Source: Snodgrassella communis (GTDB lineage Bacteria; Pseudomonadota; Gammaproteobacteria; Burkholderiales; Neisseriaceae). Taken from it: DNA of 64,000 nucleotides. The notes under the pieces were generated by a model. The model had not been told where the DNA came from, searched no databases, and saw only the letters and a list, made by a program, of their open reading frames with translations. The position numbers and the translations under genes are program-made. The stretch's first letter is position 1; every line of letters begins with the position of its first letter. The stretch spans positions 62,001-126,000 of the forward strand of contig NZ_CAJZCD010000003.1 of assembly GCF_914768045.1 (NCBI RefSeq). The letters are read 5' to 3'. This document shows, piece by piece, positions 22,307-62,028 of this stretch.

Positions 22307-22915
22307 CTATAAAGGTTTGAAATCAAGTTGGGTAAATATTCGCACCGGATTACCGCGCGCTATCTGGTGATGGTGCTTATGTTGTGCAGCTTTATGTTTT
22401 GCCTGTAACTGCTGCGCCCGCTGTGCCAGCTTATGCTGTAGGAGCAGAACAGCGAGTTTTTTGTTGGCATGCTGGCTGCGCTCAGTTTGCACTTTAACGC
22501 TGATACCGCTAGCCACATGGGTGGCTCTGACTGCTGATTCGGTTTTGTTAATGTGCTGACCACCAGCTCCAGATGCGCGCATGGTCTCGAAGATAATTTC
22601 ATCAGACTGCTGCTGAATAGTTGGGCTAAAACAGCTTGCTCCGATAAACCAGTTTTTGCGCTTGTGCTGCGGTCGATAAGGGCTGGGGCAAATCCATTGA
22701 ATGGTGCCCTGCCAGCTATCAGCCAATGCCTTGGCCTGTGCACCCTCCAAGGTAAGCAGTACTGAATGCAGTCCATGTTTAGCTGGCTCCTGCTCCACAA
22801 TTTCAACTTTCACCTGCATTTGTTTAGCCTCATATTGTAAGCGTGCCAACGCTTTTACCACTGCCAGACAGCATTCAGCCGGTCCATAAGCGGCAGATAA
22901 TTGTAAGAGTTGCAT
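22307..22915 (-). CDS. prfH: Peptide chain release factor homologue PrfH
   Basis: A 202-residue class-I release-factor relative lacking the codon-recognition domains of RF1/RF2. The catalytic loop [17 protein letters not shown] (about residues 113-129) carries the GGQ motif needed for peptidyl-tRNA hydrolysis. The C-terminus is basic with many His/Gln residues. It overlaps the rtcB stop by 1 nt (TAATG), so both are made together. Work on RtcB2-PrfH pairs shows PrfH rescuing ribosomes whose decoding centre has been cut, so that RtcB can reseal 16S rRNA; the same role is inferred here from gene pairing. Confidence 0.92.
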
Positions 22916-24051
22916 TATTTTTTCTCCGTTTGAACTTTATAGGTGATTACCGGTTTGAAGCGGGCTATTGGTCGGATTAAATCTGCCTGCACCATGGCGG
23001 TAATGACACTATCAATTGATTTATATGCCTGTGGTGCTTCTTCGTACAGGAGTTCACGATTGCAGCAAACTACGCGGCTGCCATGCATGGTACGAGTGAG
23101 TTGTTCGGCGGTATAGTGCGCTGCCAGTCTGCCTTTGCAGGCTGAGCGCTGCCATTTGCGACCGGCACCATGTGCCAGTGAATACAGGGCGGATGCTGTA
23201 TCCAGTGGCTGCACCAGATAGCTGAAGTCACCGCGTGAACCCGGAATAATCACCAGTCCTTTCGTGGCTGCTGCGGCACCTTTGCGATGCAGCCAGCCAC
23301 TTTCACCGTTAATGGTGACTGGCTCAATAAAGTTGTGGCTGATATCTACCAGTTTCTGTCCCTGTGCGCGCAGGTTGGCCAGTATGCGCCGGCCAATCAG
23401 CTCACGGTTTTGTTGTGCATAATCCAGAGCCTGATTGTGTTGCATCAGGTAAGTGCTGCCAGCAGCGCTATCGGCAACTAAACCTTGATGGCCATACTGG
23501 CGAATGTGTTTATCCAGAATCACACCGCCCAGACCACGCGAACCGCTATGCACCATCAGTTGCAGATGCCGCCGATTTAGGCCGATTTGTCGGGCAGTTT
23601 CCGGCGCATAAATGGTTTCCAGCATTTGCAGTTCGGCAAAGTGATTGCCGCCGCCAATGGTACCGGAAGCATACGTGTGTTCCGCAAGTGGCTGAATATC
23701 CGGCCACAGGCTGATGCATTCTGCTTCAGACAGGGGCTGGTCGATATTGCCCAGACGTTTAATCAGTTTGGCCTGATTCATGGCATGGATTTTTACTGTG
23801 GTTTGCCATAATGACATGCCGCAGCCGATATCTCCGCCAATGAGTGCCGGATAAAGATATTGTGTAGTAAAAAAAGCTGCACCTACCGGATAACCACGAC
23901 CGGGGTGTAAATCCGGCATACCGGCTACCAATTTAATATTGGGAAGTGTTGCTGTTGTTTGTAGCTGCTGGATGGCCTCGCCCTCTAACCAGAGTTCTGG
24001 TGTTGCTATCAGGGTGATGTTGTCCGCCAGCGGCTGAATAGAATTGCCCAT
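22915..24051 (-). CDS. rtcB: RNA 3'-phosphate/5'-OH ligase RtcB (RtcB2-type)
   Basis: A 378-residue GTP/Mn-dependent RNA ligase. Metal and guanylate motifs are visible: [27 protein letters not shown] (Cys and Asp metal ligands), [26 protein letters not shown] and the guanylylated-His motif [11 protein letters not shown] in the last quarter. I start at ATG 24051 (MGNSIQPL); a TTG five codons upstream also fits. The length, shorter than housekeeping RtcB of about 400-480 residues, and the overlap with prfH place it in the RtcB2 group that heals ribotoxin-cleaved ribosomes. No archease or RtcR is nearby. Confidence 0.92.
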
Positions 24052-24393
24052 TCTGATCCATTCCAATTATTTTTATTTGGTAATAAGCAAGCAATAGCCA
24101 GCCATGTTCATCGGGGCTGAACAGGATTAGCGTGCTGAAGAATAAATTGGCAGGCCGAAGCCAAGGATCAGGAGGTGATTAGCCCTGGATTGACCTGCAA
24201 GGGATAGGTAGTACAAGCATAATTATTCCTTTCCATTGCAATGTTGATGATTTGATAGAGTGGCGTACTGTAAATTATGTTCTACGGATAGTCAAAAATA
24301 ATCAGCCATTTTTATTCTGATAGGCTGAGTATGTTTAATATTGTGTGGCTATTTCACTACTGTTTGGCTATTTCGGGCACTTTTGTTATGGGT
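24052..24393 (-). promoter_or_regulatory. Leader of rtcB-prfH with anti-Shine-Dalgarno mimic
   Basis: A 340-nt gene-free region upstream of rtcB. Read as the rtcB transcript it contains AUCACCUCCU (complement of 24170-24179), identical to the core of the 16S rRNA 3' end, and is more GC-rich than neighbouring spacers (around 24110-24215). The segment could form local hairpins, for example GCAGGTC with GACCTGC-like partners. No known riboswitch is recognised. Regulation by damaged ribosomes is an inference. Confidence 0.35.
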
Positions 24394-24849
24394 TTATTTT
24401 AAGTTTAAAAAATAATAAACAAATTGATTATCAATTTGATATCCCGCCTGTTCATATAGGGCTCTTGCCTTGTGATTGTCACTGGCGGTGCATAATGAAA
24501 TGCCACTGTAGCCACCATCATGGGCAAATTTTTTCACGTATTGCATGAGCTGGGTGGCGATGCCCTTTTGCCGATGGTTTACAGGGATATACAAGTCGTT
24601 GAGGATTATAGTGGACGATATTGATAATGAAGAAAAGGAAAAATATAACTGTACAAATCCGCAGGCTTGTTGCTGATGATAGGCAATGAAGATGGCTGAA
24701 TCCTGCTTCTCCAGTCTTTCCTGAATGAATTTTCTGCTTTCTGTTTGATTATCAGCCAGACCGTAGAACTGGCGATAGCTAGCAAACAGTAAAGCAGCAG
24801 CATCGAGCTGCTCTGATGTTGCCCGAACAATAGAAATTTGATCAACCAT
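24394..24849 (-). CDS. GNAT family N-acetyltransferase
   Basis: A 151-residue acetyl-CoA-dependent acetyltransferase. The acetyl-CoA-binding motif A is VNHRQKGIATQLM (about residues 88-101), preceded by the beta-strand ILNDLYIPV and followed by LCTASDNHKARALYEQAGYQ, the usual motif B. The substrate is unknown. It follows the macro-domain gene by 26 nt on the same strand and precedes the rtcB leader, so it may be part of the same accessory block. Confidence 0.85.
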   Translation of the reverse strand: MVDQISIVRATSEQLDAAALLFASYRQFYGLADNQTESRKFIQERLEKQDSAIFIAYHQQQACGFVQLYFSFSSLSISSTIILNDLYIPVNHRQKGIATQLMQYVKKFAHDGGYSGISLCTASDNHKARALYEQAGYQIDNQFVYYFLNLK

Positions 24850-24875
24850 TTAATAATTTCTTGTGCAGTTATTGA

Positions 24876-25343
24876 TTAAGTGGGCATATATTTAACAATA
24901 ATAACCCGTGCGTTGGTTTCAATCGGTAACAATGTTTCCTGCATAAGCTCAAGTGCCTGCTCCGGACTGAAACCGCCTGAACCGGCGCCAATCAGTGGGA
25001 AAGCAACAGACGCATAGTTCTGGGTATTAACAATGTTCATGGCGGAAATAACTGATGTTCGGATTGAATAAGCGCTGGCGCGCCAGAACATGTTGATGCC
25101 GGCCACATGAATGATGGCCTGATAAGGTAATTTACCGGCACTGGTAACGACTGCGGAACCTAATTTGATCGCCCCTGCTCTGCCTAGCTGGCGAAAAGGT
25201 GCGTAGCCGGCTTTTCGCTTGATGGCACCAGATACCCCCTGTGGCAATAGTAACCACCATGGAATAATATTCCGGTTCCATGCATTGACAATAACTTCGA
25301 CAGGTTGTTCCAGTAAATCTCCACTGATAATTTCAGGCTGCAT
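24876..25343 (-). CDS. Macro-domain protein (ADP-ribose binding)
   Basis: A 155-residue stand-alone macro domain. Signature parts are GDLLEQPVEVIVNAWNRN (residues 8-25, the VNAAN-like adenine/ribose loop, here VNAWN), GVSGAIKRKAG (about 36-46), GSAVVTSAGKLPYQAIIHVAG and FPLIGAGSGGFSPEQ (about 113-127, phosphate loop). Such domains bind or hydrolyse ADP-ribose derivatives, including O-acetyl-ADP-ribose and protein or nucleic-acid ADP-ribosylation. It heads a minus-strand run macro, GNAT, rtcB, prfH, which suggests nucleic-acid damage reversal. That link is inference. Confidence 0.88.
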   Translation of the reverse strand: MQPEIISGDLLEQPVEVIVNAWNRNIIPWWLLLPQGVSGAIKRKAGYAPFRQLGRAGAIKLGSAVVTSAGKLPYQAIIHVAGINMFWRASAYSIRTSVISAMNIVNTQNYASVAFPLIGAGSGGFSPEQALELMQETLLPIETNARVIIVKYMPT

Positions 25344-61381: not shown

Positions 61382-62028
61382 TTAAATTAACTGCTGTTTC
61401 AAATCATCTGGTAAAAATGCCTGAAAATAATCAATTTTGCCGTCATTAAAGGTTATTTTGATATTGCTATTCTGTTGCAGGGTAAATAATGCGAGTGCTT
61501 GCACTCGCATAATCAACCTCAATATTTGCACGACTGATTTATTTTTGCTCATTGAAATGCAACTCTAAATCGCCCGAATGATGTGTTCCTGCATAATCGG
61601 AATAGCGAGATTCAATCCGTTTACATGTATTATTTTCCCATTCCAGATACCAAATCCTATCGCCATTCCTAACGTTTGAATCTACCAGTACCATCAGCAA
61701 AAAAACTGATATATTCAATTAACCAACTGTTAATACATATTGCTTCAACCAATACAAAACTCAATCTGTATTAGTATGCAATACCGGTAAATGGTTGTCC
61801 TTGAAAATAGTATGGTAATTGATTCATCTCATAATCAACATATTCACCACTGGTTAACAAATCATAGTCAATTTTAATCATTCCCTCAGCTTGTAAAGCT
61901 CCATAATTCCGACTATTAGTAGTAATACCATCGGTGATTTCATATATTTGATAAAGCTGATTATCCCGATAATCGTAGGCTTTACCGGTAAATAAAATAT
62001 CGTTATAAAAGTAGTGATTACTGCGATT
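61382..62028 (-). pseudogene. Decayed immunity-like locus with YwqK/MORN-type repeats
   Basis: On the minus strand three coding pieces persist. 61771-62028 reads NRSNHYFYNDILFTGKAY, then about 45 further residues and YYFQGQPFTGIAY; the paired xxxFTGxAY units are typical of YwqK/MORN-like antitoxin or immunity proteins. 61539-61684 reads NGDRIWYLEWENNTCKRIE and ends HHSGDLELHFNEQK. 61382-61506 reads MRVQALALFTLQQNSNIKI and ends FLPDDLKQQLI. Frames differ and starts are missing. A GCGAGTGC/GCACTCGC hairpin (61492-61509) lies inside the last piece. The same sequences recur in fragments at 29731-29891. Confidence 0.75.

Follow-up and report, generated by a model that had tools for sequence, protein, structure and literature searches.

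RNA ligases of the RtcB family have been described next to peptide chain release factor H (PrfH) in both Escherichia coli and Pseudomonas aeruginosa. In E. coli, rtcB2-prfH is reported to give protection against colicin E3, with both the release of peptide from E3-cut ribosomes and their religation described (PMC9223846). In P. aeruginosa the RtcB-like gene armZ (PA5471) adjoins prfH (PA5470; PMC12057347) and is placed under a leader peptide, PA5471.1; ribosome stalling on this peptide is reported to increase armZ transcription, and attenuation has been proposed (PMC12057347, PMC13041342). Here we describe an rtcB2-prfH pair, together with the RNA leader that precedes it, in 64,000 nucleotides (nt) of Snodgrassella communis DNA (assembly GCF_914768045.1, contig NZ_CAJZCD010000003.1, forward-strand positions 62,001 to 126,000), referred to as the window, whose own numbering is used throughout. 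The module itself was already known; what had been overlooked is a conserved leader that probably turns rtcB2-prfH on when ribosomes stall, and that makes the regulation of the pair testable.

The rtcB2-prfH pair

Both genes lie on the minus strand. rtcB2 occupies 22915..24051 and codes for 378 amino acids (aa); the mechanically called open reading frame (ORF) runs from 22915 to 24066 with a TTG start at 24066, whereas alignment places the conserved RtcB2 start at the ATGGGC at 24051. The protein scores 528.5 bits against NF007153 (cut-off 407) and 516.8 bits against TIGR03073 (cut-off 271.8), and these scores make it a member of the release-factor-linked RtcB subfamily. prfH (22307..22915, 202 aa) scores 292.3 bits against TIGR03072 (cut-off 166.65), carries its GGQ motif as GAGGQ, and has as its closest PDB chain 7sa4, “Peptide chain release factor H” (E 6e-72). 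The stop codon of rtcB2 (TAA) and the start codon of prfH (ATG) have one base in common, giving TAATG. The original prediction, of an rtcB and a GGQ-bearing prfH overlapping by 1 nt, is thus borne out, as is its identification of the pair as the RtcB2-PrfH system, the known ribosome rescue and repair module: the family scores, the order of the genes and their overlap all agree with it.

The pair belongs to the same two protein families as the module of E. coli ATCC 25922 (PMC9223846), although its PrfH shares about 60% identity with those on record for E. coli and its activity is predicted from sequence. The RtcB-RtcA operon under RtcR, as described in PMC7790460, also has an RtcB-family RNA ligase as a repair enzyme, but neither rtcA nor rtcR is among the identified genes adjoining the window rtcB2, and the site that precedes the window leader looks sigma-70-like.

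Across 83 genomes of the family Neisseriaceae, prfH exceeds its cut-off in 35, and RtcB2 is found in the same 35, nearly full length in 34 of them and as a fragment in the remaining one (G015). Within the genus, one member of which, S. alvi, inhabits the bee gut, 11 of 14 genomes carry rtcB2-prfH, the genome of the window (G000) included; G076, G077 and G078 are without it. In a class-wide sample rtcB2 exceeded its cut-off in 6 of 274 genomes. The colicin E3-type toxin domain PF09000 was matched in 0 of the 14 genus genomes, in a search whose positive control was silent and which therefore does not imply absence.

The leader before rtcB2

In the gap of 327 nt between rtcB2 and the GNAT gene upstream (342 nt counted from the ATG at 24051) stand a promoter-like site and a conserved leader, both on the minus strand. 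The site, TTGACT-17-TACAGT at 24267..24295, lies behind GNAT and before the leader and is sigma-70-like in appearance. The scan for promoter-like sites as a whole returned no more sites than shuffled sequence; this one stands as TTGAC-17-TAnAnT at the same position in 11/11 genus carriers. Control of the sigma-54/RtcR type was set aside, as a by-eye comparison with its consensus gave no correctly spaced match upstream of rtcB2, no scan having been made.

The leader (24139..24248) of the window is 93% identical to those of the 10 other genus carriers and is flanked by less conserved sequence: identity is 71% in 24296-24393, which precedes it, and 84% in 24052-24138, which follows. In the genus carriers the promoter-like site is followed by a Shine-Dalgarno (SD)-like GGAAAGGA, an upstream open reading frame (uORF) of 13 codons and a set of conserved hairpin arms. 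In the window the uORF reads MLVLPIPCRSIQG (24179..24220); its length is constant in 11/11 genus carriers, the stop being TGA in G068 and TAA elsewhere. The element ATCACCTCCT after the uORF stop, which resembles the 3′ end of 16S rRNA, was considered as an anti-SD mimic and rejected, since it is not conserved in the genus alignment.

Other genera of the family have the same layout before rtcB2, as do named loci from Pseudomonas, Pectobacterium, Serratia, Burkholderia, Ralstonia, Vibrio and others, and so does an E. coli plasmid copy (L120, which is not the ATCC 25922 record) that also shares the gene overlap, the pairings P1 and P2 described below, and a uORF, MTNPLSMTLCRPFQD. When a uORF is strictly required to have an ATG start, 12-20 codons and one of three five-letter SD strings, 108 of 110 loci have one before rtcB2, the two without being G058 and G059. 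Among the controls it occurs in 12 of 1100 dinucleotide shuffles and, for random stretches taken from the named loci, in 17 of 1392 (about 1%). The 110 loci (11 from the genus, 21 from elsewhere in the family, 1 from E. coli and 77 named) are related and therefore do not represent 110 independent events. G015 with its rtcB2 fragment, G032 and G060 stand outside them, and L121, L122 and L171 were dropped from this survey as duplicates of G072, G080 and G049.

The leader offers several pairings, all on the minus strand. P1 (24195..24241) joins sequence before or at the uORF SD to the late uORF (TTGCAA, 24241-24236, with TTGCAG, 24200-24195), and P2 (24150..24198) joins the end of the uORF to a segment past its stop (GCAGGTC, 24198-24192, with GGCCTGC, 24156-24150), holding the stop codon in its loop. 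In P3 (24147..24164) the downstream arm of P2 is instead paired with the segment just upstream of it, as TTGGC-TTCGGCCT-GCCAA followed by TTTATTC, a weak terminator-like hairpin. A candidate P4 (24053..24171) would tie sequence around this downstream arm to the rtcB2 ribosome binding site (RBS), CTGATCC (24171-24165) meeting GGATCAG (24059-24053) just before the rtcB2 ATG; CCAATT with AATTGG (24068-24063) is an alternative candidate. Bases are common to P1 and P2, and likewise to P2 and P3, making these pairings mutually exclusive. When the window leader is folded freely it forms P1, P3 and the CTGATCC:GGATCAG pairing at the rtcB2 start, an off-like state. The scan for terminator-like sites found 4 against a shuffle mean of 5.4, the weak hairpin at 24164-24147 among them.

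Comparison across leaders supports P1, P2 and P4. In 46 leaders aligned by sequence alone, the seven pairs of P2 are formed in 95.3% of cells, compared with 87.0 +- 0.9 in shuffles, of which 0/500 were as high; double-change cells number 22 where 4.5 are expected, covariation is 0.278 against 0.125, and sliding the partner lowers pairing to 20-52%. These leaders are the 49 of 107 that were chosen by diversity and clear register, minus L174, L187 and G067, for which the alignment by sequence left the 3′ arm unplaced. All 107 leaders were entered into a partner-exchange test, thinned at 70% identity and with the best stems scored regardless of register. P1 scored 17.41 against 14.71 (standard deviation (sd) 0.39, n=54), P2 scored 19.30 against 16.01 (sd 0.57, n=28), and P4, taken as the downstream arm with the RBS, scored 15.98 against 13.96 (sd 0.37, n=44), with 0/2000 as high in each case. 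The automatic stem picks missed P1 in, for example, G070, G079 and G080, or P2 in G074, G075, L126 and L140; such rows were kept, and G066, for which the wrong uORF had been taken, was left out. In the held-out genome G221 a 12-base arm at the uORF end has, by eye, a perfect partner downstream of the stop.

At gathering scores Rfam returned no match to the leader in the window or in 11 relatives. A covariance model of the element built here, R1 (uORF with P1, P2 and P3), matches the window leader at 74.1 bits, and this is the sole match at E <= 1 in its own genome; being a training row, it is matched by construction. Over the 83 family genomes R1 gives 28 matches at E < 1e-4, one per genome and 73-215 nt from the rtcB2 match, with the next-best match in any genome at E 0.13; 13 of the 28 genomes were in training and 15 were not. 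All 11 genus carriers are matched, seven of them from outside training, and so is G032, whereas six of the 34 family genomes with a nearly full rtcB2 are unmatched. A further search took in 77 sources picked to exclude most training loci, and of its 45 held-out named loci 29 were matched at E <= 1e-4, nine between 1e-4 and 1, and seven not at all (L151, L169, L174, L185, L186, L187 and L192), a uORF being present in all seven. In the class sample, under stricter filters, R1 matches G000 and G221 (E 0.009) among the six rtcB2 carriers.

Away from rtcB2 the model matched 0/9 loci lacking the gene, and gave no match at any of the loci of three more RtcB-family genes in the genome of the window. 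These code for 468, 406 and 408 aa and lie at G000:C1:170927-172333 (L095:7928-9334), G000:C1:201935-203155 (L096:7936-9156) and G000:C4:117988-119214 (L097:7989-9215). The third of them comes after a 539-aa ORF that is slipin-like by eye.

How the leader may act

We consider it likely, with a probability of about 0.7, that the window RtcB2-PrfH is an operon with its own promoter, regulated through a PA5471.1-type attenuator based on a leader peptide. In both systems a short ORF leads into an RtcB-family gene that has prfH as its neighbour, alternative hairpins are present, and the uORF of P. aeruginosa PA7 (L162) reads MIQFSTLCRLRLA, its Gln3-Phe4 being those of PA5471.1 as reported. They differ in the peptide, in the distance from the uORF stop to the ligase gene (212 nt to armZ, 127 nt to the window rtcB2), and in the RBS pairing and weak terminator-like hairpin of the window element; P. 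aeruginosa ArmZ is also described as a mexXY anti-repressor, for which the window holds no counterpart evidence. The words “leader” and “attenuat” are absent from the main text of PMC9223846, and among the open-licence papers listed, judged by title, opening of the abstract or passages, we found no description of this leader outside P. aeruginosa.

In a healthy cell, ribosomes would reach the uORF stop and cover the 5′ arm of P2, leaving the downstream arm to form P3 and/or the rtcB2 RBS to stay paired in P4, with little RtcB2-PrfH made. Damaged or blocked ribosomes would stall early in the uORF and prevent P1; P2 would then form round the uORF stop codon, P3 and P4 would be disturbed, and rtcB2-prfH would be expressed. 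PrfH could then act on the damaged ribosome to free its peptide, and RtcB2 could reseal the cut 16S rRNA, so that damaged or stalled ribosomes would turn on their own repair module. We infer the stalled ribosome to be the signal in Snodgrassella, and control may be transcriptional, translational or dual. As a means for cells to detect cut ribosomes, a leader conserved alongside rtcB2-prfH, with the ribosome itself as its reader, would be a direct and simple candidate, and one that a reporter could test.

A number of observations weigh against this attenuator. Ribosome-masked folding of the window leader gave no clean switch, with RBS pairing at 0.73 when free, 0.61 with a ribosome at the uORF stop, 0.63 with one at the start and 0.73 with one at codon 4, and P2 appeared in none of the four lowest-energy folds (free and three masked). 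It is because of the absence of P2 from these folds that the probability was set at 0.70, and given the masked folding as a whole the order of switching is put forward conditionally. The U-tract of P3 is poor. Two of the five covariation measures for P2 are unremarkable, pairs with a double change numbering 4 (reached by 31/500 shuffles) and further pair types 9 (136/500), and the choice of the 46 leaders for diversity and clear register favours P2. The signal for PA5471.1, as described, is ribosome-targeting antibiotics rather than rRNA cleavage (PMC12057347, PMC13041342), and the leader of P. aeruginosa PA7 reaches only 23.1 bits in R1 (E 0.14). Divergent leaders, visible by eye in G066, G067 and G082, also escape R1. 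No leader was found at rtcB2 in the family genomes G058, G059 and G060 (G060 by eye), nor, by eye, at the class-sample loci of G335, G281 and G150, with G102 ambiguous; the leader is therefore common rather than universal.

Other readings of the same element have to be set beside attenuation. The leader could be an autoregulatory binding site for RtcB2, PrfH or another RNA-binding protein, with the uORF merely coupling translation, and the confinement of strong R1 matches in the 83 family genomes to the front of rtcB2 would suit such a site; the presence of an SD and uORF in 108/110 loci and the precedent of PA5471.1 favour uORF translation as the sensor, and we regard autoregulation as unlikely. 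The conserved Cys/Arg-type codons might instead point to sensing of the supply of particular amino acids and not of ribosome damage. A conserved core does lie in a Cys-codon frame in 68/107 uORFs, often as LCRS, yet it is read in another frame (Phe-Ala and similar) in 20/107 and is not recognised in 19/107, and since the frames differ it is the RNA rather than the peptide that seems to be under constraint. In P. aeruginosa, moreover, Q3K or F4L in PA5471.1 is reported to produce no rise in expression on its own (PMC13041342), and amino acid sensing appears quite improbable.

Attenuation by stalled ribosomes may reach beyond the window. We suggest, tentatively and at a little under even odds, that the PA5471.1-like leader, rather than being special to efflux control in P. 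aeruginosa, is the ancestral sensor of RtcB2-PrfH across beta- and gammaproteobacteria; by stalling on the uORF, ribosomes with a cut decoding centre would directly induce the enzymes for their own rescue and resealing, and pairing of the rtcB2 RBS would also gate its translation.

The macro and GNAT genes and other neighbours

The original prediction had tentatively joined rtcB2-prfH with two genes upstream, a GNAT gene (24394-24849; PF00583, 59.8 bits) and a macro-domain gene (24876-25343; PF01661, 74.9 bits), in a four-gene RNA-damage island. The two do lie upstream on the same minus strand and 26 nt apart. Within the genus, however, they are broken or missing independently of rtcB2-prfH, an outcome of the kind that the original prediction had named as refuting. 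The macro gene is a full ORF in 5/11 carriers (G000, G069, G070, G071, G075). G072, G073 and G079 have it in fragments and G068 as a decayed remnant, and at the rtcB2 locus of G074 and G080 it was not detected. For GNAT, 4/11 carriers have a full ORF (G000, G072, G073, G079) and G069, G070, G071 and G075 a broken one; none was found at the rtcB2 locus in G068, G074 and G080. RtcB2 and PrfH, by comparison, are complete in 11/11, in the window and, matched end to end, in the other 10. Some of the breaks could be assembly errors; the pattern differs between macro and GNAT and spares rtcB2-prfH.

The proposed survey for conserved co-occurrence accordingly finds both neighbours as full ORFs in 1/11 genus carriers, the genome of the window alone, and a homologue of either in 0/99 loci outside the genus. 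The latter come from a tblastn search (E <= 1e-3) of 101 loci, L100-L200, most of which extend 3 kb each side of rtcB2; homologues of the window macro or GNAT were matched in L121 alone, which is G072 again, L122 is G080, and the remaining 99, among which L171 repeats the genome of L117, have none beside rtcB2. Joint action of the macro and GNAT proteins with RtcB2-PrfH, such as the removal of ADP-ribose marks and the acetylation of ribosomal or RNA substrates, is suggested by their common strand and 26 nt spacing, and by an unrelated GNAT gene, yafP, that also lies upstream of rtcB2-prfH in the E. coli plasmid copy. BLASTP shows no similarity between the window GNAT and yafP, and given the independent decay, the count of 0/99 and the promoter-like site and leader that rtcB2-prfH has for itself beyond GNAT, the island is unsupported and such joint action is highly improbable. 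The proposed partners were thus the wrong ones, and macro and GNAT do not appear to be part of the module but rather bystanders to it.

In the E. coli plasmid copy yafP (L120:4843-5295) stands directly upstream of the rtcB2 leader. The window GNAT was considered as a YafP orthologue and rejected, BLASTP giving no alignment. Decayed GNAT-like copies occur elsewhere in the genomes of G068, G079 and G080, and G078, which is without rtcB2-prfH, has a macro gene of 63% identity at a different chromosomal place (L092:5952-6422). In G074 the place of macro and GNAT is taken by other DNA, including a 291-aa ORF on the opposite strand to rtcB2 (L087:6399-7274) with repeats that look beta-propeller-like by eye.

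Together with rtcB2, a PrfH match is present at 100/101 of the loci L100-L200; none was found at the Xenorhabdus stockiae locus L145, in a stretch extending about 3 kb past rtcB2. In G015 (L105) prfH is intact and the rtcB2 match covers about 92-97 C-terminal residues, as if truncated. Five family genomes have an extra ORF between rtcB2 and prfH, of about 200-260 aa as called: G040 (L101:5424-6116), G021 (L102:5996-6682), G067 (L104:5301-6077), G082 (L106:6177-6830) and G003 (L100:5590-6195). In searches with those of L101 and L106, Pfam gave nothing above cut-off, the weak match of L106 being at 13.8 bits, and PADLOC gave nothing; the sequence of the extra ORF runs MKIISKFKDFYDH..YGIDPVLVFDRR, with variants.

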